Shown in pieces: positions 136 to 64,000 of a DNA stretch of 64,000 nucleotides. Every line of letters begins with the position of its first letter. The stretch's first letter is position 1. Both the position numbers and the translations under genes were made by a program. Location: assembly GCA_902784465.1 (NCBI GenBank), contig CACZUZ010000001.1, positions 43,769-107,768 on the forward strand. Direction: 5' to 3'. Under the pieces are notes generated by a model that had not been told where the DNA came from, did no database searches, and saw nothing but the letters and a program-made list of their open reading frames with translations. The DNA comes from an uncultured Bacteroidota bacterium (GTDB lineage Bacteria; Bacteroidota; Bacteroidia; Bacteroidales; P3).

Positions 136-242
136 CAACTTTACAGGTCGAGCTTTTTTAAGAGCAAGGTGTCGCTAATCCTTGGAAGATAGTTTGATAC
201 ATTCATAGATTTTGTATTTAATCAAGTGCAAAGATATCACTA

Positions 243-312: not shown

Positions 313-384
313 TCGCCCCTCAATTTATACAAAAATGCGGTCAACTGCATATACTATGCTTACTACTTGTTAAATTACAATACG

Positions 385-828: not shown

Positions 829-873
829 AAAGATAAGATTATTAAGTTTTACAAATTGTTTATATTGACAGTC

Positions 874-2784: not shown

Positions 2785-2843
2785 GGTTCTATTATTATAG
2801 CAATTAGAAATTTGCATCATTTTAATTAACAATCGTTTATACC

Positions 2844-5303: not shown

Positions 5304-5367
5304 TAGTAGTTATAATAATATACTGTTAAATAAATACTTAGAATAATAATCTTTGAGAGAGCATGAT

Positions 5368-6062: not shown

Positions 6063-6112
6063 GATAATGTGTTTGTTTGAAGTTGGATTACAACTGTTTA
6101 AAAAGCCTTATA

Positions 6113-7897: not shown

Positions 7898-7926
7898 TAG
7901 TACTAGTAATATTTATCATTTGTAAA

Positions 7927-8463: not shown

Positions 8464-8621
8464 GCAATTACAAGGATTAGATTAACTGTTTAGTCTTTTT
8501 GTTGGTGTCTGTTTATGTGTTGATTGATAGGTGCTTTGTTGTTTTGATTACTCACGATTTACTTGGGTAAAAAAACAGGACGTAATGACCTTGAAACAAA
8601 GAAGGAAGGACATTCGGGCGA

Positions 8622-9932
8622 TTAAGTGGTAGGGGTCAGGTCTTTATTGGCGTTACCACTTTTAGTCTCTGCTGTATCGACTGGCTCTTTTTTCGTGACG
8701 GGTTTTGATGCTCTTGAATTAGCATCAGCACCCTGATCTTCAGTATCAACGCCTTGATCTTCAGCATTGACATCCTGCTCTTCGACAGTATCAGAAACCG
8801 TGTCAGCATACAACATAGTATCTTGTCCGGGATGCGTAAGTCTATGGTTTTGTACCATCATGCCAGAAATGAATACCAACACTACGACAATCACACCAAC
8901 AATTATTGAAAGCTGCTTTCGATGACAGTGATAAAAATCAAGCAAACCATGGAATACATTTTTCTTCTGTTTGATCTGGCTATTTTCTGGATTTTCATTT
9001 TGGGAAGTTTCTTCTATTACGATGTCTTTAGACTCCTCATTTTTATTTTCATTAATCTGTAAGAGGATTGCAGTCACATTGTCATACCAGTCGCAACGTC
9101 GGGCGGCATCGAAGAGACAGGTGAGGGTGTCCTTTAATGAATCCCTATTTCGAGACAGAATATCTTGGATGTTTTCATCCGAATATGGCTCGCCATTTGA
9201 TCGGAGGCGTCCGTCGTCAAACAGCACACCGCTCAAGCCATCGCTGCAAAGCATGATTAAGTCTCCATCTTCCAAATCGAACTGTCGAGACTCGGGCCCG
9301 GCATTACCCTTGCTTCCACCGCCAAGGCAGTGGGTGATGATATTGCCCTGTGGATGAGAGAAAGTCTCTTCATATTTGAGCTGTTTCTTGCGAACCATAT
9401 CCTGTACCATAGAATGGTCTTCAGAAAGCATTTCCAGCCCTTTGCTCGGATGGTAACGGTAGGCTCGACTGTCTCCGCACCATGTAACCGTCAATTCATT
9501 TCCCACAATCCATGCCATAATGATTGTGCTTCCCATACCATGGCGGTTGGGGTTGGCTTCGGCATCGTTACGTATGTTTTGGTCTGCTGATTTAACAATC
9601 TTCTCGAGATGTTTTGCACGGGATTCCCTTGAAGGAAAATCTTTTTCAGATACAATTGCTGAGGCTATCATTTCCTTAACCGTGCTTACAGCTATTTGAG
9701 ATGCGACTTCGCCGGCATTGTGTCCTCCCATACCATCCGCCACTACCATCAAAACACCCTTTTCTGGTAAAGATGTGGTGGTGTCGAAGGAAACGGATGC
9801 TCCTATATCGCCCACATTAGGAATGATAGCGAAACTATCCTCATTGCCCTCGCGAGGTGCACAGGGGTCATACTTACCAGCTGCTTCGGTTCGTGCGGCT
9901 ATCCTGTAACTGAATGATTCTACTTGTTCCAT
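8622..9932 (-). CDS. PP2C-type Ser/Thr phosphatase with membrane anchor
   Basis: 436 residues. PP2C/Stp1-like domain about 8-290 with metal-binding motifs VVADGMGGHNAG, GMGSTIIMA, WCGDSRAY, CSDGLSG and DNVTAIL, so catalytically complete. A transmembrane helix follows (about 338-360, LSIIVGVIVVVLVFISGMM), then an acidic tail with three short repeats of the type D-Q-G-V-D-T-E. Its start codon shares one base with the stop of the 9932-10795 gene (TAATG), so the two are translationally linked. It should dephosphorylate substrates of the two kinases in the locus. Confidence 0.9.
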   Translation of the reverse strand: MEQVESFSYRIAARTEAAGKYDPCAPREGNEDSFAIIPNVGDIGASVSFDTTTSLPEKGVLMVVADGMGGHNAGEVASQIAVSTVKEMIASAIVSEKDFPSRESRAKHLEKIVKSADQNIRNDAEANPNRHGMGSTIIMAWIVGNELTVTWCGDSRAYRYHPSKGLEMLSEDHSMVQDMVRKKQLKYEETFSHPQGNIITHCLGGGSKGNAGPESRQFDLEDGDLIMLCSDGLSGVLFDDGRLRSNGEPYSDENIQDILSRNRDSLKDTLTCLFDAARRCDWYDNVTAILLQINENKNEESKDIVIEETSQNENPENSQIKQKKNVFHGLLDFYHCHRKQLSIIVGVIVVVLVFISGMMVQNHRLTHPGQDTMLYADTVSDTVEEQDVNAEDQGVDTEDQGADANSRASKPVTKKEPVDTAETKSGNANKDLTPTT

Positions 9933-10795
9933 TAGTTTTTCTTGTTTCTTTTATTCTTTTTACCCTGATTATGTTGTGAGTGAGGTGATGGAGTCAGTTC
10001 GTTGACAGGTTCCTCATCAGGGCTTGAACCAACTTGATTGTTAGCAATGTTACGGTGAATTGGTACCAGCAACCATCCAGCACTATCCTTAATTGCTATG
10101 CCAGCCACCCTTAATTGTATCATGCCGGCCTTTGGATATGTGGGTACAACCCATACAGCACCGACAGGTTTAGGTGCGGCAACGCTGTCGCGAACCATAC
10201 TTGGCATTGCTGGAACTACAACGGGTTGGGCTGTTATTGAGCCATTTAATTCCGAGGAACATACAATAGCCGACGTTGAAACTGCACCTGCTTTGCCAAG
10301 TGTATCCGATGCGAAACACCAAAGCAACCAACCATTCCTGTAAGAAGTGTCGCTATGTATCGACAAAGCGGGGATGTTGACTAAAGAATCTGAACGCACA
10401 CTCATTATTAAGGATGATGAAGAATCTATGCTTATTGGCAAAGAACTGTACGAACTATCCCCAATTGGTCGAAAGGACATTTCACTCAGTACGGGTTTGT
10501 GAGATTGACTATACCGCGTGTAGTCTGTGTCGTACAACCATGGTTTAATGGATGACGAGGCTGTAATAAGACCAGAGTCGGTTACAATGCCCAAAGTATA
10601 TCCTTGACTGAATTCTGTCCGGTTGTTTCTTCCATAATGTTGCCCTGAACTATCTTGTAATTTGTATGCGCTGCATACTACAACAAGCGAAGGTTCAATA
10701 GACTGCTTCACCATTGCTTGATTGGGAGTTATGCCCCATTGAGCCGACACGGCTATCGGCAACAATACAAAAGTCGTTATGAGTATTCTTTTCAT
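9932..10795 (-). CDS. Exported protein, possibly a degenerate trypsin-like fold
   Basis: 287 residues with signal peptide MKRILITTFVLLPIAVSAQ. The body has strands such as SLVVVCSAY, GYTLGIVTDSGLITAS and WVVPTYPKAGMIQLRVAGI that resemble the first half of a trypsin-like barrel next to a real trypsin-like gene upstream (10800-12425), but no catalytic His, Asp or GNSGG motif is visible. The tail is basic (KNKRNKKN). It could be an inactive protease paralogue that binds rather than cuts. It lies 4 bases after the protease gene and overlaps the phosphatase start. The fold suggestion is weak. Confidence 0.5.
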   Translation of the reverse strand: MKRILITTFVLLPIAVSAQWGITPNQAMVKQSIEPSLVVVCSAYKLQDSSGQHYGRNNRTEFSQGYTLGIVTDSGLITASSSIKPWLYDTDYTRYSQSHKPVLSEMSFRPIGDSSYSSLPISIDSSSSLIMSVRSDSLVNIPALSIHSDTSYRNGWLLWCFASDTLGKAGAVSTSAIVCSSELNGSITAQPVVVPAMPSMVRDSVAAPKPVGAVWVVPTYPKAGMIQLRVAGIAIKDSAGWLLVPIHRNIANNQVGSSPDEEPVNELTPSPHSQHNQGKKNKRNKKN

Positions 10796-10799
10796 GGTT

Positions 10800-12425
10800 T
10801 TATCTGTTTCCGATTCTACTTATTGGCACAGCCCAATTATACAGTGAAGACCTACTATCCCCACGTGAAACTATTCCGACGACCACTAATTTACCATTTT
10901 TAACTGCAAAAATGGGTCCACCAGAATTACCATGGTCTGTTCCTGTTGAATGCATTATACATCCATTACTGGAAATGCCAGATTGGGTCACATTCATTTG
11001 ATATGAAATAGGTTCTATCCTGCTTGCACTTTCGACCCCCAGTCCCATTGGGAAACCCATAACAAGCAATTGTTGCTGACTTGAAAGGTTCGTGCTCAAT
11101 GTGGCATCAGCCTCCAGCGTACCTGTATATTGAGTTTGTGCCCATGCCCAATCCGTGGCAAACATTGTAGGATCCCAACCCTCTATTAATGGGAATACGA
11201 AACGCCACTTTATGGCCGTACCGTCCTCTGCGGTTGCGACAGTTTCGACATGATCTCTGCTTCTGTCTATGTGGAATTGGTCGGAAGTAAGAGAGATACG
11301 ACGTCCGCTTTTGCTTGAATAGGCCGTTATGTACGATTTCATCTTCAAGTCAGACCTCGTTAATGTTGATCTTGCCCATTGAGCATAAGAGTTTGTGTCG
11401 TTATAGGAATTATACCACCAGCCTTCGACACAATGACGTGCCGTGACAAAGCGGCCATCGTTTAGCAGAAAACCCGTTGCGGTCCAACCATATTGTGACG
11501 TGCGAACCTCACCACTTTCATTTCTATAGTAATATGGGATTTCTACCTCTTCACCATTAATTACCACTACGGTTTTTGCAACAATAAAGAATACATCGGC
11601 TGCAAGATTTTGGTTGTTCATCATCTCATCAATGCCGGGTTCTCTAGTCGGAGGTGTCACAGATTCTAGTCGTCTACGTTCTTGGGCTGATATTCGATTT
11701 TCTTGCTCTTCTATTTTCTGCTGAAGACCCGCAACCTCTTCAGCTCTTTCAATATTATTTCTGTCAAGTTCTTCTTGAAGGGCCTCTATTACTCTCTGGT
11801 GATGTATATGCTCATAAACAGCATAAGCAACCCATAATACAGCTAAAGCAACAATAATTCCGATAAGAGTTTTTATGGTTTTCTTATAGGGTGCAATGGC
11901 TTGGCTTACAACATTCCTTACAAATGTTGTTCCTCGAGATTTGCTGCGCAAGTTCTGTATGCTGTTCTCTTTTGGAACTACAAAGCGGATTGTCGGACCG
12001 CCTTTTGCGAGCTGAATAGTGTCACCGTTTTGCAGCACATATTTCTTGAAGGAATCTTCTGGTCTTATGATGCGGCTACCACCATTGACTATGGTGCTGT
12101 TTGTCTTAGAAAGATGCTCCAAAGTCCATTCACCGCCGTTGCGGGAGATTGAGATGTGCTTGCCACTCACTTTACCTTCGATGCCCTCATCCCGATACCT
12201 TACAGCGCAACTGCTACTGCGACCAATCTCAACATAGTCGACAAGTATTTGTTTCTTCTCACCAACATGATGTGATGACGTGTCGCTTAAGAATTCTATT
12301 TCGAAATAATAGCCATCTTTTTTCCCGAATGCTGCACCGATGCTTTGACCAATGCTGCGTGAGAACGATGGTTTACGTCCTGGCATAGAGGACGTTTGAT
12401 TTCGGGTTTCTCCGTGTGTAGCCAT
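10800..12425 (-). CDS. FHA domain, membrane helix and trypsin-like protease
   Basis: The ATG at 12425 (MATHGETRNQTSS) is preferred over the upstream frame start at 12476, which lies in the preceding gene; 541 residues. FHA domain about 40-150 (VEIGRSSSCAVRY, GKVSGKHISI, NSTIVNGG), one transmembrane helix (about 186-207), a Glu/Arg coiled coil, then an extracytoplasmic trypsin-like domain with His in VTARHCVEG, a candidate Asp in ATDWAW, and Ser in DHGNSGGPIF. The order FHA-inside, protease-outside suggests that cytoplasmic phosphothreonine binding controls proteolysis across the membrane (as in HtrA-like sensing), which is inference. Confidence 0.85.
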   Translation of the reverse strand: MATHGETRNQTSSMPGRKPSFSRSIGQSIGAAFGKKDGYYFEIEFLSDTSSHHVGEKKQILVDYVEIGRSSSCAVRYRDEGIEGKVSGKHISISRNGGEWTLEHLSKTNSTIVNGGSRIIRPEDSFKKYVLQNGDTIQLAKGGPTIRFVVPKENSIQNLRSKSRGTTFVRNVVSQAIAPYKKTIKTLIGIIVALAVLWVAYAVYEHIHHQRVIEALQEELDRNNIERAEEVAGLQQKIEEQENRISAQERRRLESVTPPTREPGIDEMMNNQNLAADVFFIVAKTVVVINGEEVEIPYYYRNESGEVRTSQYGWTATGFLLNDGRFVTARHCVEGWWYNSYNDTNSYAQWARSTLTRSDLKMKSYITAYSSKSGRRISLTSDQFHIDRSRDHVETVATAEDGTAIKWRFVFPLIEGWDPTMFATDWAWAQTQYTGTLEADATLSTNLSSQQQLLVMGFPMGLGVESASRIEPISYQMNVTQSGISSNGCIMHSTGTDHGNSGGPIFAVKNGKLVVVGIVSRGDSRSSLYNWAVPISRIGNR

Positions 12426-12438
12426 ATTATTGTTTTTT

Positions 12439-13182
12439 TTATTTGTATAGACGATTGATAAGGTTGTGAAGCACATACGTCCTCATCCGTGTGTAAAGGT
12501 CGTCCTGTCGTTTTTGGAGAGCATGGATGGCCAGCATGAGGATAATGCTTAAAAAGAGTGCGACAAGTGTGGTGTCGAAAGCCACCGCAAGTGCGCTGGT
12601 GACTTTCTCAATTCCTTCGGGTGATGAAGCCTCGTTGGCATAGCCTAAAGATGATGCAATTCCGAGTACGGTTCCAATAAAACCCACGGATGGAATGGCC
12701 CACGAAATATAGCGAATAAACGACTGGTCGCTTTCCACTTCGGCATTCAAATTGGCCGATTCACTTTCGAGCACACTCAAAGCCTCGGATGATGATTTGC
12801 TTATGCGGTACTTCAAACATACCATTATGGCAAGGTCTACCAACTGGAAATGCGTTTGCTTGTTTTTCTCCTCCAGTTTCTGTTTCAGCTGATAAGCATC
12901 GTCGGCACTATATAGCCACTCTTTATCCTCGACCAAAAAATGTCTGTCGAAAGCCTGCTCTTCATAACGCAATTTGTTGCTTATGGCAGCAACTTCCAAG
13001 ATGCCCCAGAAGAATAGGAAATAGGTGGCACCTTGTATTAGTCCTGCAGGTAGGTCGCCACCAAGCATAACAATAATCCTTGCAGGTTTTTCTCCTAAGT
13101 TGCCAATCATTACAAGAATGGCCATCAAAATAGCAGCCAACAGGATGCTGATAACTACTCTGCTTGTTCTTGTCTTTATCAT
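12439..13182 (-). CDS. MotA/TolQ/ExbB-type proton channel subunit
   Basis: 247 residues with four predicted membrane helices: two near the N-terminus (about 8-28 and 40-65), then after a cytoplasmic loop the family pair SWAIPSVGFIGTVLGIASSL and SALAVAFDTTLVALFLSIIL. The second pair is the signature of MotA/TolQ/ExbB pores, which couple proton flow to a partner anchored by one helix. The partner is encoded just upstream; its stop and this start overlap by four bases (ATGA). No flagellar or Tol genes are nearby, so this is a dedicated energiser for the kinase locus. Confidence 0.85.
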   Translation of the reverse strand: MIKTRTSRVVISILLAAILMAILVMIGNLGEKPARIIVMLGGDLPAGLIQGATYFLFFWGILEVAAISNKLRYEEQAFDRHFLVEDKEWLYSADDAYQLKQKLEEKNKQTHFQLVDLAIMVCLKYRISKSSSEALSVLESESANLNAEVESDQSFIRYISWAIPSVGFIGTVLGIASSLGYANEASSPEGIEKVTSALAVAFDTTLVALFLSIILMLAIHALQKRQDDLYTRMRTYVLHNLINRLYK

Positions 13183-37132: not shown

Positions 37133-38244
37133 CAACTAATAGCGACCACCGACAGGAGGTTCATCACGAACCAGCTGTCGAAACCTTGAAGAAGCAAACG
37201 TTTGGCGTTACCGTCGCGGTTGAGTTCGATGCCGTCGCTATAGGGGGTGACGCCGATGATTTTGGAATAGGGGATTTTCACGCCCTTGGTGGGGCTGTTG
37301 AAGATGAGGTGTTTGTTGGTGACATAGAGGTTGCCGGTACCTTCGAGGTTCAAATAGCTGTGTTCTACAGGTTTCATTCGGCCTGTACTGGGGCGGTAGT
37401 AGACGCCCTTGCATATTCTCACGGATAAACCGCCTCGGTTGCTGTGATATTCACGCTGCACCTTCTCTTCGAAGAGTTTTACATCGTCGTATACCCAGAG
37501 TACCGACTCACCCTTACCCAGCATAACGGGGTAGCCCAATGTCTGAGGAGGGAGTTTGCCTTGCTGTAAGCCGCTGAGAATACCTGCCTGTGAGATTTTG
37601 GCGATGTCGCTGCTCTGGTATTTGGCGGGAAGAGCTGTTAGCTGGATAGCGAAGGAGGTGGTGTATTCGTTCACCAGACGCTCCTCTTGTGGAGTGAGAA
37701 GACCGTCTTTCAGGAAATTTGTTGCCGCTTTCTCCAACATATAGTAGCAAGCATCGCCGACAGCATCGTTGGCAATAGGCAACGCTCGTGTAACTCCGTT
37801 TATAGCCGTCCGGGTAGTTGCAATAGTTTGTTTCCCTGTAAAGTATTCCGCGATATGGCCTTTGATAATCTTCTGTGCGAATCGGGTGATTGCTCCGTCC
37901 CGGTCGAGAAAAGAATAGGGTTCCCCAACTGCTGACACCAGCGAAGTGACCACCTGCGGCATTTGTGGAGAGAATGGGCGATGGATAGCGGCGGTATATC
38001 CGTCCAGCGCCTTCGTGAATTCCGATGTGATATCGTCGGCGTTCAGGAAGTTCTCTTTCCTCAATTGCGATACTTCGCGCTGGATGGCTCCTCCACGCAC
38101 TCCACTGGAGCTTGTGACACCTCGGAAGTAGTCACCCAACAGTTTGCGGAGCTTCTCTACACCAGCGGAATGCTTCTCTTCGCACTCCTTGTGAACTGAA
38201 GAGAAAAGTCCGGCACTTTGATTACAGTATTTACAGGTTGACAT
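37132..38244 (-). CDS. Zinc-finger and PH-like domain protein, copy 2
   Basis: 370 residues, near-identical to the 33160-34257 protein apart from a five-residue insert (SSSGVRGGA region) and scattered substitutions. It keeps the C-K-Y-C...H-K-E-C knuckle and the C-terminal GNLYVTNKHLIFNSP PH-like part. Conservation of both copies while the second nuclease has decayed suggests that this protein works on its own. The function is unknown. Confidence 0.75.
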   Translation of the reverse strand: MSTCKYCNQSAGLFSSVHKECEEKHSAGVEKLRKLLGDYFRGVTSSSGVRGGAIQREVSQLRKENFLNADDITSEFTKALDGYTAAIHRPFSPQMPQVVTSLVSAVGEPYSFLDRDGAITRFAQKIIKGHIAEYFTGKQTIATTRTAINGVTRALPIANDAVGDACYYMLEKAATNFLKDGLLTPQEERLVNEYTTSFAIQLTALPAKYQSSDIAKISQAGILSGLQQGKLPPQTLGYPVMLGKGESVLWVYDDVKLFEEKVQREYHSNRGGLSVRICKGVYYRPSTGRMKPVEHSYLNLEGTGNLYVTNKHLIFNSPTKGVKIPYSKIIGVTPYSDGIELNRDGNAKRLLLQGFDSWFVMNLLSVVAIS

Positions 38245-38381
38245 TTCTATGTTTGTTCAAGAAAACAATAGTGATACATATAAAAACTTGGCTTTAACTA
38301 CAAAAAAATATTACTTAAAGCCACGTTTCTTGTCGACTATATTATGAATAATTGATTCATTTCTATTTATTTAGTGTATCA

Positions 38382-38516
38382 TTAGGATATTTGCTTTGTG
38401 TTAATCCAATTGTAGTAATCAGAGTCCGTCCTGTGCGCATAGTCAAAAACTAAATCAAAAGATAGGCCGAGGGTGGCTGCAATTTCTTGGTCTGATAATA
38501 TCCCTTCAAATAACAT
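38382..38516 (-). CDS. Possible small HTH-like protein
   Basis: A 44-codon frame (MLFEGILSDQEIAATLGLSF...) whose S-D-Q-E-I-A-A-T-L-G-L-S segment resembles a helix-turn-helix. It lies 45 bases after the stop of the TPR/LRR gene at 38562, in the same frame, so it could instead be a broken-off tail. Weak support. Confidence 0.3.
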   Translation of the reverse strand: MLFEGILSDQEIAATLGLSFDLVFDYAHRTDSDYYNWINTKQIS

Positions 38517-38561
38517 TTTGTTTAATTTTGATTTGTCTTCAGCTGTTAGTACTTCAAAATA

Positions 38562-39578
38562 CTAATAGGTAATCAGCTCCATTTTATACCATGGACTCTT
38601 TTTCTCATATAGATTCTGGTATTCTTCTGGTATATATATCCTTGAATAATGACAGTTCGCCGCTTTTATTTTGGGTGGTTTCCCAATAAGTCTTATCGTG
38701 GTATTATCTGGGAAAACATTTTCCCCTATATAAATAACACTGCTTGGAATATTTATTTCTTGAATTGGACATCCTTTGAAAGCATAGTCGTTGATTTTAG
38801 CAAGTCCTTCATTTAAAGAAACATCCGATAGATTTTCGCAGTACGAAAAAGCCCAACGTCCAATTGAGGTCAACGACAAAGGTGCGTGAAACTGTTTGAT
38901 GGATGTACCATTAAATGCAAAAGGTGAGATAATCTGTAGATTGTTTGAAAAAATCAAGTTTGATACTTTTGTACAGTTAAAACCACCCACTATTTGTAAA
39001 TGCTCTGGCAAAATAACATCTTTTATGTATTTGTTTCCACCAAATGCATTCTCGTCAATAGCATGTACTTTGACCTGTTTGCCATTGATGATAAATTCGG
39101 AGGGAATCTCTAGAATGCCTGTGGGTTTCCGATATCCATCCCATTCTCCAATATTATCAGGTGCTTCTATGATGCATCCGGTAGATTCGACCCTAAAGAA
39201 GATAGTATTCCCTGATTTTTGCTCTGCCACCCAGTGGTTTTCTCCTAAATGAGATTGTTTAATGCTAACAACAACATCCTTTGTTTGTAGACCTATGGAA
39301 ATAGCTTGATTCGGTGGTAGTATTGTTTTTTCCTCTGATAGACAATAGGTCTGAATCATAGACAAACCTTGTGGGTTGTTTGGATCTAAAGCCATTGCCT
39401 GAAAAAGAGACACCTTGCCTTTTTCGAATTTGCCTATCGCAAAGTAAGTTTCTGCCAGTCCCAAATGAGCATCTTTGGGCGATTCCATACTCTCAATGGC
39501 AGCTTGGAAAAATTCCAATGCTTTAGTGTATTCCTTCTTTTCAAGGAAGGACTTTCCTTGTTCTATGTAGTTTGACAC
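38562..39578 (-). CDS. TPR and leucine-rich-repeat protein
   Basis: 338 residues from a GTG start (MSNYIEQGKSFLEKKEYTKA). TPR region about 1-85, then a beta domain with WVAEQKSGNTIFFRVESTGC (about 125-150), and four or five BspA-like LRR_5 repeats (FNGTSIKQFHAPLSLTSIGRWAFSYC, YAFKGCPIQEINIPSSV), ending WYKMELITY. No signal peptide, whereas BspA-like proteins are usually exported, so a cytoplasmic recognition role is inferred. Paralogues at 34259, 40491, 41542 and 43402. Overlaps the AbiGi-like gene by 17 bases. Confidence 0.78.
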   Translation of the reverse strand: MSNYIEQGKSFLEKKEYTKALEFFQAAIESMESPKDAHLGLAETYFAIGKFEKGKVSLFQAMALDPNNPQGLSMIQTYCLSEEKTILPPNQAISIGLQTKDVVVSIKQSHLGENHWVAEQKSGNTIFFRVESTGCIIEAPDNIGEWDGYRKPTGILEIPSEFIINGKQVKVHAIDENAFGGNKYIKDVILPEHLQIVGGFNCTKVSNLIFSNNLQIISPFAFNGTSIKQFHAPLSLTSIGRWAFSYCENLSDVSLNEGLAKINDYAFKGCPIQEINIPSSVIYIGENVFPDNTTIRLIGKPPKIKAANCHYSRIYIPEEYQNLYEKKSPWYKMELITY

Positions 39579-40451
39579 GATTTATATTGTTTATTATGTT
39601 TTCCAATATTGGAATAATCTTCGCTGATCTTTTGAAAAGATGTTACATTCTTTATTAACTTACATTTCTCGCGACACGATATTTCCGCTCCCATAAAAAT
39701 GTTGAATCCATTTATTGCATCAACAATTTCTGGGATATCCTTTTCTTCTGGAACAATGATGTGAGAGACAACATTTTTGGCAGTTCCATTGTTAAGCACC
39801 AAGTAATTGGACAATCCTATCTCTTTGCGTTCTTTTTTTCTTTTGAAATCATCTAATTGCAGGCCATAGATTAAACTAGGAACATTCCCATCAGTATCTT
39901 GATTGAAGGTGATTCTCCATTCCCTTTTATTATAGAAACGCTTAAATCTACCTTCTGTATCATAGCCAGAATATGGCTTTGCCAAAGAGATTATCTCTTT
40001 AGCGTAGAACTGCAAATCATAATATTCATTACTATGAATTTCACCCCCTTCTTTCTTTCCAATTCGTTTCTTTAGGCGTACTAATTCAAGCATAATATCT
40101 TTCTTCCACGAGTCCTCATAATAATAAAAAACAGGATTGATTACTGCGCGATATTGTTCAAAAAAAGCTTCTTTGTCTAATCCTATACAATAACTGCCAT
40201 AGTATTCACGATGTTCTCTTGTTTGATGAATCGGTATATCACAAAAGCAAATCATTGGAATTGCAATTCCATACCGCGGTTCCTTGCTCCCAATGATTCT
40301 TGCCATTGGGGCATAACCGTCATCGTCAAAATGAGAAGTCTCTTCATCAAAAACCTCAAAACTATACGACATACGGAATCCATTCTTCGGTATTCTCAAT
40401 AGATATTCTTTCTTCAAAGTGGGACAACGATTCTGAACTAACTTCTGACAT
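39563..40451 (-). pseudogene. AbiGi-like abortive infection protein, probably frameshifted
   Basis: 39563-40417 encodes 284 residues but starts only at a TTG (LKKEYLLRIPKNGFRMSYS). Family features: IPMICFCDIP, EYYGSYCIGLDKEAF, NPVFYYY, FYNKREWRI, HIIVPEE. AbiGi proteins normally start with a short lead ending H-F-T-K; the other frame from ATG 40451 gives MSEVSSESLSHF just before, so a two-base loss near 40408-40418 would restore MSEVSSESLSHF-x-KKEYLL. AbiGi is the antitoxin half of the AbiG phage-resistance pair; no AbiGii is adjacent. Frameshift is inference. Confidence 0.6.
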
Positions 40452-40490
40452 AAAATGGTCTTTCCAATTAATAAGTTATATATGGATCAC

Positions 40491-41540
40491 TTAGTAGGTA
40501 TTAACCTTTACATACTCCCAATCGTTATCTTCTTCATACAAATATTCCTTATTATGTGGCACAAATACAATATAACGATTCTCATCTATACTGCTAAGTT
40601 TGGGAGGATTGCCATGAAGTCGAATAATAGTGCTCGAGGGGAATGCTGCGTATCCAATTTCTCTTACACTCTCTGGAATATCAATCTCACGAATTCCACT
40701 ATTATCAAAAGCGTGATCGTCGATTTTCACAAGGCCATCGTTTAAATGAACATCAGAAAGCCTTGAGCATTCCGAAAAGCAGCCGTTCCCTATGGTTTTA
40801 CAATCTGCGGGTATAGTTATTTCTTCTACAAGTGTTTCAGAGAAAGCATAGTCATCGATGTGTTGCAATGCTGAAGGAAGTATTATTTCCGTTATTGCAG
40901 TGCCGCAAAAAGCGGAAATACCAATTTTCTGTATACCTTTAGGCAGGTGGACAGATGTAATTGTTTTCTCCTCTCCAGCACTCTCATCAAAAACAAAATC
41001 ATCAATAGCTACAACATTGAGGATTGTATTATTGACAGTTATTTTTTCTGGAATATAAATATCTCCTTTGGGTTTTACGTACCCTTCCCAAAGGTCTTCA
41101 TACTCATCTGGACTTAAAGGGCTAACAATAGTACATCCCTTAGGACCTACCCTAAAATGTAATGTGTTGCCAGATTGTTGTTCTGCCACATAATGGTTTC
41201 TCCCCAAATTGCTTAGTGGACTAATAGTCACAACAGGATCTTGGCAGTGTTGAGTATTCTGCACTAAGAATCCGGGTATTCCATTCCCTGACCAAGAAGG
41301 AAGACAATACTTTTGAATCATTGAGATTCCTTGGGAATTATTTGGATCTAAAGCCATCGCCTTGAATAAAGCGACCTTCCCTTGCTCATCTTTTTGTATG
41401 GCAAAGTATGCTTCAGCTAAACCAAGATTAGCCTCTTTTACTGATTCGAGGCTTTCAATCGAAGCTTGAAAAAACTCAATCGCCTTGATGTATTCCTTAT
41501 TTTCCAGAAGGGTTTTGCCCTTTTCTATATAGTTAGCCAT
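40491..41540 (-). CDS. TPR and leucine-rich-repeat protein
   Basis: 349 residues, start MANYIEKGKTLLENKEYIKA. TPR part about 1-85 (FFQASIES, LGLAEAYFAIQKDEQGKVALF), beta domain with HYVAEQQSGNTLHFRVGPKGC, then LRR_5 repeats (FCGTAITEIILPSALQHIDDYAF, CSRLSDVHLNDGLVKI). Ends WEYVKVNTY. No signal peptide. It starts one base after the stop-side frame of the next paralogue (41542), forming a tandem array. Ligand unknown. Confidence 0.78.
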   Translation of the reverse strand: MANYIEKGKTLLENKEYIKAIEFFQASIESLESVKEANLGLAEAYFAIQKDEQGKVALFKAMALDPNNSQGISMIQKYCLPSWSGNGIPGFLVQNTQHCQDPVVTISPLSNLGRNHYVAEQQSGNTLHFRVGPKGCTIVSPLSPDEYEDLWEGYVKPKGDIYIPEKITVNNTILNVVAIDDFVFDESAGEEKTITSVHLPKGIQKIGISAFCGTAITEIILPSALQHIDDYAFSETLVEEITIPADCKTIGNGCFSECSRLSDVHLNDGLVKIDDHAFDNSGIREIDIPESVREIGYAAFPSSTIIRLHGNPPKLSSIDENRYIVFVPHNKEYLYEEDNDWEYVKVNTY

Positions 41541-57328: not shown

Positions 57329-58306
57329 TTAGATGAAGAACAGGCAGACACCCGTGACGCTGATAATGGCACCGAGGACCTCGCGGGGGGTGACTTTCTG
57401 GTGGAACAGCATTGCGGCAGGCGCGATGATGAGGACAGGCGTCAGCGAGAAGAGCGTTTGAGCGATACCTGTTGAGGTGTACTGCGTAGCCATAAGCGAC
57501 AGGCTGACCCCGAGGAAAGGCCCGAAAAGCATAGAGCTGAGGGCGCACAATACTGCTTTGCGGTCACCAACAGCGTCGCGCAGTTTTTGAGCACCGTTCT
57601 TAGAAAGCAACAGGAGCAGCATAAAGCCTGCAAACCCCATCGTGCCGCGTATCATTGTAGATGCAAAGGGAATGGTGACACCCAGAGGGATTGGCAGAAC
57701 AGCACCGTCGGCAACGGCGTCGATGTCAACGTTGTTGGCAATGAGTGCGGCATCGTAATGTTCCAGGCCTATCTTGCTCAAAACCAAACCCGCGCCCTGG
57801 CATATACCTGCCATGGCGGCAAACATCACACCTCTGGCAGGGAGTTTTAGCCGTATGGAAGAATGGTGTTCGCTGTCTTGTTTCGACAGTACGGATGTGG
57901 CAATTCCCGCCAGGGTGATGAACATGCCCGCTATCGCCAGTCCTCCCATCTGCTCACCTATGAAGAGGCGGCCGAGGATGGCTGCGGTGGGTGCCGAAAG
58001 GGTCATGAAGAGTTGTCCGAAGCGCGAACCTATGATGATGTAGCCCTGCATAAGACAGTAGTCTCCAACTACATAACCCACCACGCCCGAAAGCAGTAGC
58101 CATAGACATGTGCTTGTGTCGGCAAAGCGTGGCCAGGGTACTCCCATGGTCAGCCACAGAGTCAGTGCCAAAAAGCATAGCGAGAAAGCCATGCGTACAG
58201 CGTTGAATGGCAACGAGCCCATACGCTTGGAACCTACCTCGGCAAAGAGTGCCGTGGCAGTCCACGAAAGGGCTACGATGATAGAAAGTATTTCTCCAAA
58301 GAACAT
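57329..58306 (-). CDS. EamA/DMT-family transporter
   Basis: 325 residues with ten predicted membrane helices in two EamA repeats (ILSIIVALSWTATALFAEVGS at the N-terminus, GVTIPFASTMIRGTMGFAGF in the second half) and a family end PREVLGAIISVTGVCLFFI. DMT transporters export or import amino acids and metabolites; the substrate cannot be named. The gene stands alone, followed by the EFR1-type gene upstream on the same strand (34 bases). Confidence 0.9.
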   Translation of the reverse strand: MFFGEILSIIVALSWTATALFAEVGSKRMGSLPFNAVRMAFSLCFLALTLWLTMGVPWPRFADTSTCLWLLLSGVVGYVVGDYCLMQGYIIIGSRFGQLFMTLSAPTAAILGRLFIGEQMGGLAIAGMFITLAGIATSVLSKQDSEHHSSIRLKLPARGVMFAAMAGICQGAGLVLSKIGLEHYDAALIANNVDIDAVADGAVLPIPLGVTIPFASTMIRGTMGFAGFMLLLLLSKNGAQKLRDAVGDRKAVLCALSSMLFGPFLGVSLSLMATQYTSTGIAQTLFSLTPVLIIAPAAMLFHQKVTPREVLGAIISVTGVCLFFI

Positions 58307-58340
58307 GGTTGTTCCGTGATTAGAGAATGGTGGATAGTGA

Positions 58341-59474
58341 TTAGCGAGCAGCTATAATTCTGCCTTGGAGTTCGTGCATGGTTTCTTTGACCGATGCCAG
58401 CTGGGCTTCGGCTTTGCTCTTGAAGCCTTGTCCGTCGGCCAGGTTATAATCTCTGCCGTCGATTCTGTACCAACATCCGAAAAAATCAATCTCCTCGGTA
58501 CCCTCTTTAGTCACAGGGTCTGTCCCCCTGTCCATATTGAATCGGGGCAATAGTGCATCGTAGGCGTTTATCATGGAGTTGTAGCCTGTGGCTTTCAGTT
58601 CCTCTATTATCTCGGGACAGCCGTCGAGTACCTCAAGCAGTTCCTCGTTTGTACAGTTGCGCCAGATGTTGTCGTTTGGCTCTTTGCTGCTTTTGTCAGC
58701 TCCGTTTTGTTGGCTTTTGTCCTTGTTTTGTAGGTTTTTGATGTCTGGATGTCGGTATTGGCGTTCCTTTTCGACGGGTTTGTTGGCGACGAGGATTGCT
58801 TGCTGGGGGCATACGTGTAGGCATCCGAGGCAGCAGGTGCAGCGGTCGCCAATCACGGCCTTCTGATGGTCGTTGATGATGATGTTACCTATGGGACAGG
58901 TATTCTTGCACAGGCCGCAACCTATGCAGCGGTCGTTATTCACTGCTGGACGGAAGGCCCCGAACATCTTACGTTCAATGGCGGGGAGTCCCATCAGCCA
59001 TCCTATTATGCTGGGAGTGCCGAAGTGGTTGCCGTGGCGGCGGGCCTTGATGTCGCCGATGATGTGTTGAAGACGCGGGGCATATTTCTCAAGTTTCCAC
59101 AGCTGGTCGTTGGGATTTCGGCCGAAGATGGTTGCGCTGTTGTCGGGCATTCGCACTTTGTGGCAGTAGGCGACTTCGATGCCTTGTCGTTTCAGGAGAC
59201 GGCGTACAGTCCATATAGAGTTGCCCACCTGAGCGCCGCAAGTGATGACGATGAAGAGGTAGGCCTCCATGCCCAGCTGCAGCTGAGGTATGAGGTCGCG
59301 CACCGCCGGTGGCGTGTTGAAGTCATAGCTTGGATAGACAAGGCCGACGATTTTCTCTGCTCTAAGGTCGCATTTAGCCGCTTCCGCCATTGCCATTGTC
59401 CTGTCGCCTGTTGCCTCTGCTATTTTCTGTGCCACGGCGAGGCTGTTCCCTGTTCCGGTGAAATATAATATCAT
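58341..59474 (-). CDS. EFR1-type flavodoxin-like protein with two [4Fe-4S] clusters
   Basis: The ATG at 59474 (MILYFTGTGNSLAVAQKI) is the proper flavodoxin start; the open frame reaches 59537. 377 residues. Flavodoxin-like domain about 1-175 (FTGTGNS, VYPSYDFNTPP, VITCGAQVGNS), then ferredoxin motifs CIGCGLCKNTCP and CTCCLGCLHVCP, then a charged tail. EFR1 proteins move low-potential electrons in anaerobes; the partner is unknown, but the hydrogenase operon lies next to it on the same strand. Confidence 0.9.
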   Translation of the reverse strand: MILYFTGTGNSLAVAQKIAEATGDRTMAMAEAAKCDLRAEKIVGLVYPSYDFNTPPAVRDLIPQLQLGMEAYLFIVITCGAQVGNSIWTVRRLLKRQGIEVAYCHKVRMPDNSATIFGRNPNDQLWKLEKYAPRLQHIIGDIKARRHGNHFGTPSIIGWLMGLPAIERKMFGAFRPAVNNDRCIGCGLCKNTCPIGNIIINDHQKAVIGDRCTCCLGCLHVCPQQAILVANKPVEKERQYRHPDIKNLQNKDKSQQNGADKSSKEPNDNIWRNCTNEELLEVLDGCPEIIEELKATGYNSMINAYDALLPRFNMDRGTDPVTKEGTEEIDFFGCWYRIDGRDYNLADGQGFKSKAEAQLASVKETMHELQGRIIAAR

Positions 59475-59495
59475 TGGAGGTTCTTTTATTGGAAA

Positions 59496-59550
59496 CAGGA
59501 AGCTTTTAATGGTCCTGTCAGCATGGCTGACAACCATTAAAAACTTCCTG
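59496..59550. terminator. Large hairpin after the hydrogenase operon
   Basis: Arms at 59496-59521 and 59525-59550 pair over most of their length: CAGGAAG with CTTCCTG, TTTTAATGGT with ACCATTAAAA, GTCAGC with GCTGAC, around the loop ATG. It follows the stop of the leftward hydrogenase operon (59580) by 30 bases and precedes the EFR1 start. It is likely a transcription terminator. Confidence 0.75.
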
Positions 59551-59579
59551 CTTGAGAATTAACCGATTCTTATTCCCTA

Positions 59580-60056
59580 TTATTTGTACTCGGCAATGAT
59601 AGCGGGAACCTGGTCGGGGGTCAGACGGCCGTAGACCTTCTCGCCAATCATGGCGACAGGGGCGAGGCCGCAAGCACCGACGCAACGGAGGGTGTTAAGA
59701 GAGAATTTGCCATCGGCAGTGCATTTGCCAATCTGGACGTTCAGCTCGCGGGCGAAAGCGTCGAGAACCTTCTCAGCACCACGCACATAGCAGGCCGTGC
59801 CAAGGCAGACATCGATAGGATGCTCGCCCTTGGGCTCCATGGTGAAGAAGCTGTAGAAAGAGACGATGCCGTAAACGCGCGACACGGGGATGTTCAGTTC
59901 GTGGGCAACGACTTCCTGCACCTCTGCGGGCAGGTAGCCAAACTTGCCCTGCACCTGGTGGAGGACATTGATGACCTCACCGGCACGGTTACCAAAGGAT
60001 TTGGCGATCTCCTTGATGATGTTGACTTTATCTTCAGATAACTTGATATTTGCCAT
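59580..60056 (-). CDS. hydC: NADH-linked hydrogenase subunit, NuoE-like (HydC)
   Basis: 158 residues, typical of NuoE/HydC. The thioredoxin-like [2Fe-2S] site is CLGTACYVRG...RCVGACGLAP with all four cysteines. In trimeric NADH-ferredoxin hydrogenases HydC works with HydB and HydA. It is the last gene of the leftward operon with HydA (60154-61920) and the HydB fragment, preceded by a hairpin-bearing gap of 97 bases. Confidence 0.92.
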   Translation of the reverse strand: MANIKLSEDKVNIIKEIAKSFGNRAGEVINVLHQVQGKFGYLPAEVQEVVAHELNIPVSRVYGIVSFYSFFTMEPKGEHPIDVCLGTACYVRGAEKVLDAFARELNVQIGKCTADGKFSLNTLRCVGACGLAPVAMIGEKVYGRLTPDQVPAIIAEYK

Positions 60057-60086
60057 AATTATTTGATTTTCGGATTTTAGGACTTT

Positions 60087-60141
60087 CGGATTTTCGGATA
60101 TTTGCGCTCTATATCTGAACGTCTGAACATCCGAAAATCCG
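60087..60141. repeat. 13-bp inverted repeat between hydA and hydC
   Basis: CGGATTTTCGGAT (60087-60099) and ATCCGAAAATCCG (60129-60141), loop of 29 bases. As RNA it forms a stable stem between the two cistrons and may adjust their relative expression. Confidence 0.75.
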
Positions 60142-60153
60142 TTTATCCATTAT

Positions 60154-61920
60154 TTACTTTGTTGCTTCGAGTTTGTCGGATTTGTCGAAGTAGTGGGTAT
60201 GGAGCTGTTCGTGGCTGAGGTGGCCGCAAGGCTCGCCGTAGTACTCCTTGTAGATGGCAAGGATCTCGGGGTTCTCGTGGCTCTTGCGGATGGGCTTGCC
60301 GGCATCTTCGCGGTAGATGGCCTCCATACGTTTGCGGATGATGTCGCTGTTGCCGTGGTGGTAGGGCTGGCCGGCACCGCCGATGCAGCCACCGGGGCAT
60401 GCCATAACCTCGATGAAATGGTAGCCGTTGGGGTTGCCCTGGCGTACCTGCTCCATCATCTTGCGGGCGTTGCCGAGGCTGTAGACAACGGCAATCTTCA
60501 GCGGGAAGCCGTCGAAATCGATGGTGGCTTCCTTGACACCGTCGAAACCACGGGTCTCCATGAAGTCGATCTTTGGAAGGGTCTTGCCGGTATGCACCTC
60601 GTAGGCGGTACGGAGGGCAGCCTCCATGACACCACCGGTGGCACCGAAGATGACAGCGGCACCTGTAGACTGGCCGAGCGGGCTGTCGAAGTCCTCTTCG
60701 GGCATGTCGTTGAGGTCGAGGTTGCACTGGCGTATCATGTGAGCCAGCTCGCGGGTGCTGAGGGTGTAGTTGACATCGCTGTCGCCGTTGACGGCCAGTT
60801 CCTCACGTGCGCGTTCGCTCTTCTTGGCGAGGCAGGGCATGATGGAGACTACGACGAGGTCCTCGCGCTTGACACCCAGCTTGGGAGCCAGGTAGTTCTT
60901 GGCGACGGCGCCGAACATTCCCTGGGGCGACTTGGCGGTCGAGGGGTACTCGAGCAGGTCGGGGAAGTTCTTCTCGTAGAAGGTGACCCATGCGGGGCAG
61001 CAGCTGGTGAACATAGGCAGCTTGACAGGCTCGCCGGCGAGGGCTTTCTTCAGGCGGCCAAGGAGTTCGGTGCCTTCCTCCATGATGGTGAGGTCAGCGC
61101 TCCAGTCGGTGTCGTACACCTGGTCGAAGCCGAGGCGGCGGAGGGCAGCAGCCATCTTGCCGGTGACGATCTCGCCGGGCTTCATGCCGAACTCTTCACC
61201 GAGGGCGACGCGGACGGCGGGAGCGGTCTGGACGACAACCTTCTTGGTGGGGTCGGCGATGGCATTCATAACCTTGGCGATGTCATCGACAAGGGTGAGT
61301 GCTCCGACGGGGCAAACCTGGACGCACTGGCCGCAGTTGACGCAGCTGCTGTCGCCGAGGTTCTGCTCGAATGCGGGGGCAACGACGGCCTGGAAGCCGC
61401 GGTTGACGCCGCTCAGGGCGCCGGCGGTCATGAACTTGTTGCACATGGTCTCGCAGCGGCGGCACATGACGCACTTGTCCATATCGCGGTAGACGCTGAG
61501 GGTGCTGTCTTTGCGGTAGGTAGAGGTCTCGCCCTTGAAGGGGATCTCCTTGATGCCGAGGCGTTTGGTCAGGCTCTGCAGTTCGCAGTCGCCGTTCTTC
61601 TCGCACTGGAGGCAGTCGTTGGGGTGGTCGCTGAGGATGAGCTCAACAACGGTTTTGCGGGCGTTGATGACACGGGCGCTGTGGGTGAGTACTTCCATGC
61701 CTTCCATAACGTCGGTGGCACAGGCGGGAGCCAGGTTGCGGCGACCCTTGACCTCGACAACACAGACACGGCATCCGCCGGGTTTGTTTTCAAAATTCAT
61801 CCCGTCCAGCTCGAAATGGCAGAGGGTGGGGATATCGATACCGTTCATGCGGGCAGCCTTGAGAATAGTGGTGCCTTCGGGAACCTGAATCGGTTTGTTA
61901 TCTATTGTGAGATTAATCAT
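60154..61920 (-). CDS. hydA: [FeFe] hydrogenase catalytic subunit (HydA)
   Basis: The ATG at 61920 (MINLTIDNKPIQVPEG) starts the plant-type ferredoxin domain; the open frame reaches 62001. 588 residues: [2Fe-2S] domain, His-ligated cluster motif HPNDCLQCEKNGDC, two [4Fe-4S] motifs (CVMCRRCETMC, CVNCGQCVQVCP), the H-cluster domain with TSCCPAW, MPCLAKK and MACPGGCIGGAGQP, and the small-subunit-like C-terminus. The layout is that of the NADH-linked trimeric enzyme (group A), which reversibly makes hydrogen from NADH and ferredoxin. All proton-transfer and cluster residues are present. Confidence 0.95.
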   Translation of the reverse strand: MINLTIDNKPIQVPEGTTILKAARMNGIDIPTLCHFELDGMNFENKPGGCRVCVVEVKGRRNLAPACATDVMEGMEVLTHSARVINARKTVVELILSDHPNDCLQCEKNGDCELQSLTKRLGIKEIPFKGETSTYRKDSTLSVYRDMDKCVMCRRCETMCNKFMTAGALSGVNRGFQAVVAPAFEQNLGDSSCVNCGQCVQVCPVGALTLVDDIAKVMNAIADPTKKVVVQTAPAVRVALGEEFGMKPGEIVTGKMAAALRRLGFDQVYDTDWSADLTIMEEGTELLGRLKKALAGEPVKLPMFTSCCPAWVTFYEKNFPDLLEYPSTAKSPQGMFGAVAKNYLAPKLGVKREDLVVVSIMPCLAKKSERAREELAVNGDSDVNYTLSTRELAHMIRQCNLDLNDMPEEDFDSPLGQSTGAAVIFGATGGVMEAALRTAYEVHTGKTLPKIDFMETRGFDGVKEATIDFDGFPLKIAVVYSLGNARKMMEQVRQGNPNGYHFIEVMACPGGCIGGAGQPYHHGNSDIIRKRMEAIYREDAGKPIRKSHENPEILAIYKEYYGEPCGHLSHEQLHTHYFDKSDKLEATK

Positions 61921-61955
61921 TTCTTTGTTATTTCTTGATTGTTTGATTGTTTGAT

Positions 61956-62000
61956 TGTTTGAGTGGCTTGCGCAGTCAATTTTACTCACGCACTCAAACA
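61956..62000. repeat. 10-bp inverted repeat in the hydB-hydA gap
   Basis: TGTTTGAGTG (61956-61965) and CACTCAAACA (61991-62000). Beside it the unit GATTGTTT occurs three times (61937-61960). It lies in the 103-base gap between the two hydrogenase genes. Confidence 0.6.
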
Positions 62001-62023
62001 TTCAAGCATTCACACATTATTAA

Positions 62024-62959
62024 TTATTGAATGGAGATTGCACCGAATTTACAGTTGTTGATGCAGGCACCGCACTTGATGCACTTGGTGCTGTCGATGA
62101 CCATGGAAGCCAGCTTGTGGCCGGGAGCGGTGTAGTCGGTACGGGAGATAGCCTCGACGGGGCAACCCTTGGCGCACTTTCCGCAGCCGATGCACTTCTC
62201 GCGGTCGATGACGTAGCTCATGAGCTTCTTGCAGACGCCGGCGCGGCACTTCTTGTCGACGACGTGCTCCACATACTCATCCCAGAAGTTGTCGAGGGTG
62301 CTGAGTACGGGGTTCGGCGAGGTCTGGCCGAGACCGCAGAGAGCGGTGTCCTTGATGACGGCAGCGAGGTTGCGGAGTTCCTGGAGGTCTTCCATGGTGC
62401 CGCGACCGTCGGTAATCTTCTCGAGGATTTCGCAGAGGCGCTTGTTGCCGATACGGCAGGGCGAGCATTTACCGCAGCTCTCCTCGCAGGTGAACTCGAG
62501 GTAGAACTTGGCGATGGCAGGCATGCAAGAGGTCTCGTCCATGACAACCATACCGCCCGAACCCATCATCGAGCCGGCAGCCACGAGGCTGTCGTAGTCG
62601 ATAGCGGTGTCGAGGTGCTTAGCGGTGAGGCAGCCGCCGGAAGGACCACCGGTCTGGACGGCCTTGAACTGACGGCCGTTCTTGATGCCACCACCAATCT
62701 CATATATAATCTCACGGAGGGTGATGCCCATGGGGACTTCGATGAGGCCGACGTTGTTAATCTGGCCTGCGAGAGCGAAGACCTTGGTGCCCTTCGATTT
62801 CTCAGTTCCGATGCTGCTGAACCATGCGGCGCCCTTGGTGATGATGACGGGGACGTTGGCGAAGGTCTCGACGTTGTTGACGTTCGAGGGCTTGCCCATG
62901 TAGCCGCTGACAGCGGGGAATGGAGGTTTCAGAGTGGGCTCGCCACGCTGGCCTTCCAA
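62024..62959 (-). pseudogene. hydB: NuoF-like hydrogenase subunit (HydB), 5' end missing
   Basis: From about 62959 to the stop, 311 codons match the later part of NuoF/Hyd[65 protein letters not shown] and two C-terminal ferredoxin motifs ([23 protein letters not shown]). The N-terminal 200-250 residues with the FMN/NADH site are absent; upstream DNA belongs to a reverse transcriptase. Both genes meet in about 19 shared bases, so an assembly misjoin is as likely as a real deletion. Confidence 0.85.
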
Positions 62960-63039
62960 CTCACGCCCCGGCGGCACTTCTCCATGGATGCCTCCAGGGC
63001 GTCATATCCGATGATTTCCTCTAAATCAAACTCGCTCAT
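62941..63039 (-). pseudogene. DGR reverse transcriptase, N-terminal fragment
   Basis: ATG 63039 opens [20 protein letters not shown] then [13 protein letters not shown], which fits the start of reverse transcriptases of Bacteroidetes diversity-generating retroelements (the K-C-x-x-G-V-x-W-K-x-S-V-A signature). After SVA the frame enters the NuoF-like gene and stops. It lies downstream of the template repeat on the same strand, the normal place for the retroelement's RT. The catalytic part is not in the window. Confidence 0.75.
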
Positions 63040-63163
63040 ATCAAATTGGGCGGGACGTGTATAGCGGCACCGGCTCGAAGGCCGGCCGCATCGCCCGCAA
63101 TTGTTCGCCCGCATGTCACGTGCGGGCGGGGATTTCGGCTCCCCGTGCCATCTAAGTCGGCGT

Positions 63164-63182
63164 CCCCGCACTACGTGCGGGG
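63164..63182. repeat. 8-bp GC-rich hairpin between template repeat and RT
   Basis: CCCCGCAC (63164-63171) and GTGCGGGG (63175-63182), loop TAC. The stretch between the template repeat and the RT is part of the structured RNA used for priming in retroelements of this kind; the hairpin fits that. Confidence 0.6.
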
Positions 63183-63208
63183 CGAGCGGCCGAAGTTATT
63201 GCACGGTC

Positions 63209-63327
63209 GGGCGCGCAGCGATTCGCGTTGGCTGCGTTGTTGTTGTTGTTCGAGTAGCCCGTCGATGTGAGATTCCAGGCGTTGTTCACATTGGAGCGGT
63301 TGGCGCTCCGCCAACGGACAGTCTGGG
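63209..63327 (-). repeat. DGR template repeat (TR)
   Basis: 119 bases that align without gaps to the variable repeat at 63880-63998. On the coding (minus) strand the TR is rich in AAC codons (four in a row near 63240), typical of templates. There are 13 differences; 12 fall on adenines of the TR (plus-strand T), changed to C, G or T in the variable copy. Both ends, including the GC-rich 3' part (plus-strand GGGCGCGCAGCGATTCGCG), are identical. Confidence 0.93.
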
Positions 63328-63351
63328 TTATAGCCTAGTCCCCTGTAGTTT

Positions 63352-63792
63352 TTAAGTGGCTTTCTTGGCGTCCCCTTCGAGGCCGCCGTATCGGCGCTGG
63401 TCGGCGTCCGCCCAGCGCCGGATGAGGTTTCTTGTTTCCACGGTCATGAGACCCCAGTATTTTTTACGCCTGCCCCGCAGGTGGAAAACCGGGGCGGCCA
63501 GGCCGATTAGGGCGAGCAAGGTATTGCAGTCGCCGATTGCCCGCCACTGCAGGCGCTTCCGCTCCATCCATTTCCTCGGATCATCGCCGACCATGATGTT
63601 GTTGGCCGTCCATACGGATACCCATACGTCAACGGCGGCCTCGATGATGCGGTCGGTCAAGGCCTGCTGGTATTGGGGCGGGAAGCTTTTCGGATTGGTA
63701 CAGATATGCACCGTATATGCCGCCAGCTCCCTCGCCCGCAAGCCGGCGTTAAGCGGCGGGTTTTCACCCCGTTTGCCTTCGGGTACGGACAT
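63352..63792 (-). CDS. avd: DGR accessory protein Avd
   Basis: 146 residues, mainly helical and basic: ARELAAYTVHICTNPKSFPP, LTDRIIEAAVDVWVSVWTANN, WMERKRLQWRAIGDCNTLLALI, and YWGLMTVETRNLIRRWADAD. The pattern of four long helices fits Avd, a pentameric four-helix-bundle protein that binds the RT and retroelement RNA and is required for mutagenic retrohoming. It lies between the variable-repeat gene and the TR, the usual order. Starting ATG 63792. Confidence 0.8.
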   Translation of the reverse strand: MSVPEGKRGENPPLNAGLRARELAAYTVHICTNPKSFPPQYQQALTDRIIEAAVDVWVSVWTANNIMVGDDPRKWMERKRLQWRAIGDCNTLLALIGLAAPVFHLRGRRKKYWGLMTVETRNLIRRWADADQRRYGGLEGDAKKAT

Positions 63793-63861
63793 TCCGCCCT
63801 CCTTCCTTGGTGCCTAGTAGCTTGCCCCGCCATCCGTGGGTGGCGGGGATTGTCCGGATGC

Positions 63862-64000
63862 TCAGCAGATGGCACAGGCGGGCGCGCAGCGATTCGCGGC
63901 GGCTGCGAGGCCGTTGCTGTACGAGTAGCCCGTCGATGTGAGACTCCAGGCGTAGTTCACATTGGAGCGGGTGGCGCTCCGCCAACGGGCAGCCTGGGAG
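63862..64000 (-). CDS. DGR target protein, C-terminal end
   Basis: The frame runs off the window at 64000; 45 residues up to TGA at 63862-63864. It reads RWRSATRSNVNYAWSLTSTG, YSYSNGLAAAANRCAPACAI: the C-type-lectin-like variable region of DGR-diversified proteins, with Trp and Asn-rich positions. The variable residues (Thr, Tyr, Ser, Tyr, Ser, Gly-Leu, Ala) match the adenines of the TR. The N-terminal part and location (surface or phage) cannot be seen. Confidence 0.85.
   Translation of the reverse strand, partial: SQAARWRSATRSNVNYAWSLTSTGYSYSNGLAAAANRCAPACAIC
63880..63998 (-). repeat. DGR variable repeat (VR)
   Basis: 119 bases at the 3' end of the target gene, aligned to the TR at 63209-63327. 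Twelve of 13 changes are at TR adenines; the exception is near the 5' border. This adenine-only pattern is the product of error-prone reverse transcription and shows that the element has been active. Confidence 0.92.

Follow-up and report, generated by a model that had tools for sequence, protein, structure and literature searches.

A probable gut-phage diversity-generating retroelement fragment with a covarying spacer RNA at the end of a bacterial contig

The right end of the window, by which we mean the whole stretch of 64,000 nucleotides that was analysed, carries a series of features on the minus strand: in that direction these are the end of a target gene with its variable repeat (VR), an avd gene, a template repeat (TR), a spacer RNA, and the start of a reverse transcriptase (RT) gene. 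Read from the sequence, the repeat pattern, the gene order, the Avd protein and the family of related cassettes identify the element as a diversity-generating retroelement (DGR). The initial annotation had described the full order of a DGR at this place; the target end with VR, avd, TR and the RT start do follow one another, but the locus is incomplete, with 45 codons of the target gene and 27 of the RT gene present.

The TR core (63327–63209) and the VR core (63998–63880) are both on the minus strand and are 119 bases long each, and their starts are 671 bases apart, leaving a gap of 552 bases. The cores differ at 13 sites, 12 of which are adenines in TR, where adenine makes up 32 of the 119 bases (hypergeometric p = 2.6e-7); the two 119-base copies first described here, with 12 of 13 differences at template adenines, therefore stand in both counts and coordinates, with the gap measured at 552 bases. 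The repeat pair can be extended to 130 bases, with TR at 63198–63327 (35 adenines in 130) and VR at 63869–63998, and 14 of the 16 differences over this length are at TR adenines (p = 8.8e-8). Of the two others, one is a T>C at 63318; the second, a C>T at 63205, is close to the 3′ edge of the repeat. All 12 of the adenine changes in the core affect the first or second base of a target codon. TR and VR have a GC-rich 3′ end in common, the place where DGRs have their IMH* and IMH sites. Within 58000–64000 this pair is the longest direct repeat, the runner-up being 68 nt long at 72% identity. An ordinary gene segment, duplicated and diverged without any DGR, would accommodate the two differences outside adenines among the 16, but has next to no chance of being the explanation in view of the adenine bias in the cores, the Avd, the spacer RNA and the 22 related cassettes described below. 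The cassette had been described as active-looking; what the adenine-biased differences show is past mutagenic homing.

The avd gene (accessory variability determinant; 63352–63792, minus strand) encodes a protein of 146 amino acids and occupies the space between the TR and VR copies. Avd is a usual though not universal component of DGRs. An Avd-like gene had been proposed between the repeats, and the assignment of the frame at 63792–63352 is now backed by a profile match and by a predicted fold. First, the product matches PHROG 3206, 'Avd protein of DGR', in a profile search (E = 1.1e-4), as do all 15 members of an alignment of the window Avd with 14 relatives. Secondly, the predicted structure is a four-helix bundle with a mean pLDDT of 90.1. 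A Foldseek search of this model against the PDB gives nothing at E<=0.001; the list is headed by the hypothetical protein 2gsc and by 2rld, annotated as S23 family (E 0.004–0.23), and the BPP-1 DGR chains 8ub7, 8ub8 and 4dwl come lower, from E 0.26 upward, their TM-scores to target being 0.69–0.83. Among viral structure models, three named Avd-like follow an unnamed top match. Searches of Pfam and NCBIfam with the window Avd, and of PDB sequences with the Avd alignment, gave no match, and the window Avd as sole query found no relative in the viral and genome collections. The gene is missing from all 60 relatives of the bin that were searched (36 of the same genus and 24 of the same order), and no other genome with the window element was seen among these 60, the viral and genome collections, and the viral contigs.

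The target gene is represented by its last 45 codons and stop (63862–63999, minus strand; stop at 63864–63862), and VR encodes the final residues of this open frame. The target end shares 49% identity over residues 360–402 with the 402-aa target of the IMG/VR contig L029, which is assigned to DUF6273 by Pfam; the 45-residue end itself has no domain match in Pfam or NCBIfam. Targets with DUF6273 are present in three relatives (L026, L027 and L029), through which we infer a C-type-lectin-like role for the window target. Of the earlier description of a variable copy that ends a lectin-like gene, the closing of an open frame by VR is thus seen directly, but its lectin-like character is drawn from the relatives. 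Position 64000 is the end of the contig (107768) and the 5′ part of the target falls beyond it, so the extension of the contig to the right that had been proposed for recovery of the whole target gene is impossible. The remainder of the gene was not found in the bin.

Relatives of the cassette were found through its avd product. A tblastn search identified three human-gut phage records, MT835491, MT835664 and MT837222, at 42, 39 and 37% identity, and a profile search added 18 IMG/VR contigs (L029–L046) and one chromosome, that of Ruminococcus bicirculans (L047); the highest avd identity, 48%, is in L029. The 22 related loci include near copies, with avd identical within L032/L034, L036–L038, and L040/L041. 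All 22 have avd flanked by a repeat pair, and 273 of the 285 differences between repeats are at template adenines. An RT start follows TR in 20 of the relatives; of the remaining two, L028 gave no RT match and L042 shows an RT C-terminus only. RVT_1 is matched by the RTs of L026 and L029. The L029 sequence (1–12469) is a phage contig containing a DGR with a full-length RT, tail- and lysin-like frames recognized by eye, and a serine recombinase related to the Ccr/XisF models at scores below their cut-offs.

A comparison of VR sequences between strains had been suggested as a check for adenine-specific changes, and this was done in the relatives, where the changes have that character. Between L027 and L047 there are 4 differences in the 414 bases of avd, a single one in the 114 of TR and 17 in the 114 of VR, and 16 of these 17 are at template adenines. 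L040 and L041 are identical in avd and TR and have five VR differences, four of them at template adenines, and L034 and L032 have a single VR difference, at a template adenine, across the 59 bases compared; the VRs of L036, L037 and L038 are identical. As far as the aligned repeats tell, cassettes of the window DGR's family have worked recently. L027 is MT835664, from human faeces in Mexico, and L047 is a stretch of the R. bicirculans chromosome, the sole relative with a named host. Because the DGRs of these two are almost the same, their VR differences falling nearly always on template adenines, the comparison suggests R. bicirculans as the host of phage L027.

Between TR and the RT start is a structured spacer RNA with covarying helices (63035–63204, minus strand), defined by a five-locus alignment and a covariance model. 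The five-locus alignment has 31 pairs in four helices, with pairing in 92.9% of cells and double-sided changes in 23 pairs, a count that leans towards structure as the structure was derived from the same five sequences; none of 500 shuffles reached this pairing, and slid controls paired in 30.5–48.7% of cells. The covariance model was then applied to a held-out set of 18 loci (L027, L028 and L032–L047), 17 of which it finds at E<=0.004, or 13 of 14 groups when near copies are counted once, and a sequence-only model finds 12 of the same 18. The held-out matches are placed between TR and the RT match, with an overlap of a few bases in some and a partial match in L043; the match in L028 is also partial (E = 0.42). 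In seven non-family loci, some of which overlap one another, the best value is E = 3.9, and the spacer is the model's sole match in the 64-kb window. A model-fitted alignment of 19 matches, which leaves out L028, L037, L038 and L041, has pairing in 88.6% of cells and double-sided changes in 30 of 36 pairs. Spacer RNA is thus present in 21 of the 22 related cassettes, four of them used for building the model and 17 from the 18 held out. A search of Rfam over 62900–64000 gave no credible match; its one snoRNA hit, at E = 0.43, falls well short of the cut-off.

How DGRs work has been established in Bordetella phage BPP-1; by analogy we infer a mechanism of mutagenic homing for the window element. 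An avd-TR-spacer transcript, containing TR and spacer, would be made in the intact element; RT and Avd would bind the spacer of this transcript, and TR would be copied into cDNA with errors at adenines. The mutated cDNA would then replace VR, rewriting the end of a putative C-type-lectin-like binding protein. In BPP-1 the spacer folds and recruits RT-Avd, and one spacer adenine primes cDNA synthesis (PMC12875486, in excerpt); given this published role, the kind of element is known. A description of the gut-phage spacer RNA is absent from the titles and abstract beginnings of the literature matches listed, and an excerpt of PMC10907252 holds nothing bearing on spacer RNA. We put at about even the chance that the gut-phage DGR lineage has a spacer RNA of its own architecture, made of two composite hairpins, that recruits Avd-RT and primes cDNA synthesis, as a second class beside that of BPP-1. 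With a covarying spacer in the related cassettes, the part that RNA plays in DGR priming can be put to the test in systems other than BPP-1.

The RT gene begins with an RT-like ATG at 63039, after TR, and its first 27 codons (62959–63039, minus strand) were recognized by tblastn to the relatives' RT genes. Identity is 56–66% over 28–32 residues, junction residues included, to the four closest relatives, and 33–45% to the remaining relatives found. After these 27 codons the sequence is that of the gene hydB, and the catalytic part of the RT is absent from the window. The RT start that had been reported after the template is therefore present as an RT-like ATG, but gives way to hydB after 27 codons. 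The RT, called missing in the initial annotation, is not truncated by the window edge; it faces the interior of the window and passes there into hydrogenase sequence. Its remainder was not found in a search of the bin, where the best match was an RT of 27% identity on contig C14 and the second the junction itself. An exact 31-base RT pattern had no match in the viral contigs, and a DNA-level search of phages gave no relative.

Beyond the junction, on the host side, the DNA (62024–62958, minus strand) belongs to the 3′ part of a NuoF-like gene, assigned by congener homology, which begins at 62958. The fragment adjoins a group A6 [FeFe] hydrogenase gene, whose match exceeds its cut-off, and we take the NuoF-like gene beside it to be hydB; the NuoF-like matches of the fragment are below curated cut-offs, as are those of the full-length congener gene. 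Twenty congeners were sampled. At least half of the fragment is matched in 16 of these, always without query residues 1–5, and in 13 of the 16 the match sits in a frame of 603–639 aa. The 5′ part of hydB (293 residues of the congener gene) is represented in the bin by just a 29%-identical stretch and a weak match of 57 residues. A 133-aa gene directly upstream of hydB in congener G017 was not found in the bin, in a search that had no positive control. Beyond that gene in G017 lies a helicase gene, which has a 62–67% match inside bin contig C28, with no hydB-like piece seen near the helicase start; because the helicase is matched inside C28 and not beside hydB pieces, the upstream neighbourhood may differ in this genome anyway.

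The junction coincides with an 18-base word of native hydB (62941–62958, minus strand) that reads WKASVA in the RT frame, close to the usual RT motif WK[DG]S[VTAI]A. The W, K and S are present at the motif places in all 20 RT starts of the relatives, and the full motif fits 16 of them (the exceptions are L035, L043, L044 and L045). On the hydB side the word 62958–62941 is identical in 3 of 11 congener loci (L013, L015 and L017), and the pattern WKxS[VTAI]A recurs at the junction place in 7 of the 10 congener loci that were scanned for it, three of them reading WKASVA. From codon frequencies this pattern has p of about 9e-7 per position, a rough value in that the window has three occurrences where 0.11 was expected, the other two being WKYSIA at 35288 and 42409. 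The 12 relatives examined agree with the 18-base hydB word at only 9–14 of 18 bases, which tells against a word shared over its full length. The word is probably common, or nearly common, to hydB and the phage RT, and an assembler following a shared or nearly shared word would be expected to make a join at that place. In congener G006 the contig (L016; G006:C104, end 7516) stops inside hydB, 43 bases past the end of the window hydB match.

We consider it highly probable that the window contains the middle of a phage DGR fragment that was misjoined, at this shared or near-shared word, to the 3′ part of hydB from a probable Bacteroidota genome. The assembler would have followed the word that hydB and the phage RT probably have in common, giving a chimeric join and not a DGR in the chromosome. 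For this reading speak the start of congener homology at 62958, the long hydB frames of the congeners, the failure to find the remainder of hydB, RT and target in the bin, the junction word, the absence of avd from the 60 genomes related to the bin, and the contrast between a probable Bacteroidota bin and R. bicirculans as the one named host among the cassettes. A short common sequence could also mediate illegitimate recombination, and since the contig reads so as given and TR and VR still look intact, the junction might be real, with a phage DGR fragment recombined into hydB, both hydB and RT cut, and the DGR left as a dead remnant. We think this unlikely, as a single point would break both genes, hydB is in long frames in 13 of the 20 sampled congeners, a search of the rest of the bin did not recover its 5′ part, and the contig breaks inside VR as well.

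An intact prophage DGR may alternatively reside in the bacterium, the assembler having lost its remainder and misjoined it to hydB. The relatives are phages, the L029 contig encodes its serine recombinase, L047 is within a bacterial chromosome, and assemblies often break at repeats, all of which would suit a prophage; but the bin yielded nothing more of the RT or target, avd is absent in 60 of 60 relatives, and the only named host among the cassette's relatives is R. bicirculans, so that we regard this as quite unlikely. The bin is 84% complete, with contamination given as 0.46%, and because of this completeness the absence of the missing pieces is weak evidence. At 62%, GC content is higher in the DGR part than in the rest of the window (46%), but we dropped this as a sign of foreign origin, since 60000–62999 is already at 55–63% in 1-kb windows. 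Under the preferred reading, a misjoined phage fragment, this bacterium should probably not be assigned the DGR, since the point of joining is a hydrogenase-gene word that resembles RT.

The bacterial contig is probably from Bacteroidota. Type IX sorting tails are a trait of this phylum, and the bin has 59 matches to them, 58 above the cut-off; the control matched Deinobacterium chartae and Bacteroides ihuae, and was above the cut-off in one. The sorting tails were used for the phylum because a search for SusD in the bin found none, though its control matched in Bacteroides ihuae. The closest phage relatives of the cassette (L026 and L029–L031) may have a host within the same phylum as the bin.

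Other reverse transcriptases are also encoded in the bin. Contig C14 carries a second, different DGR (L006:1228–3422 and L056:11949–15043; G000:C14, about 37948–41042) with an RT (RVT_1), a TR and a target gene, in which VR differs from TR at 15 sites, all 15 at template adenines. Only about 380 bases separate its RT from its target, so there is no avd there; the spacer model has no match in it, and the neighbouring frames are phage-like by eye. A further RT on contig C42 (G000:C42:21871–22491) resembles a group II intron RT by eye, and contig G000:C21 has two more. The C42 and C21 enzymes were set aside as the RT of the window DGR as they are not adjacent to it.

A known system close to the window element is that of Bordetella phage BPP-1, whose bbp7 gene we take to be avd. 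In BPP-1 (mtd, bbp7, TR and brt; AY029185) the order is the same, with target and VR, a small gene, TR, spacer, and RT, although the whole cassette is present there and the window holds part only. The fold of the predicted window Avd is like that of BPP-1, with the Avd chain 4dwl and the DGR complex chains 8ub7 and 8ub8 among its matches; despite this likeness, a profile comparison of the two Avd proteins fails (probability 0.1%). The spacers are 144 nt in BPP-1 and 158 nt here, and the BPP-1 spacer folds better than most shuffles but is not found by the spacer-RNA model of the window family.

Likenesses are also seen among gut phages. In Faecalibacterium prophage DGRs the VRs map to the DUF6273 C-terminus of the targets (PMC11792537, in excerpt), and in phages nd4 and nd12 DUF6273 is reported to have a C-type-lectin-like fold and the cassettes contain AVD genes (PMC10743442, in excerpt); DUF6273 targets are thus shared, on these excerpts, with the window relatives L026, L027 and L029. 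The word Avd is absent from the main text of PMC11792537. Compared with these prophages and with nd4 and nd12, the window has 45 target residues and no RT domain, and is likened to them by their excerpted descriptions. DGR clades 1, 4 and 6 are described as almost exclusively viral, mostly from phages with predicted gut hosts in the Firmicutes, Bacteroidetes or Proteobacteria (PMC8144416, in excerpt). The gut phage cassettes MT835491, MT835664, MT837222 and L029–L046, together with L047, have a repeat pair around avd as in the window, and the window DGR is one more fragment of this described gut-phage group.
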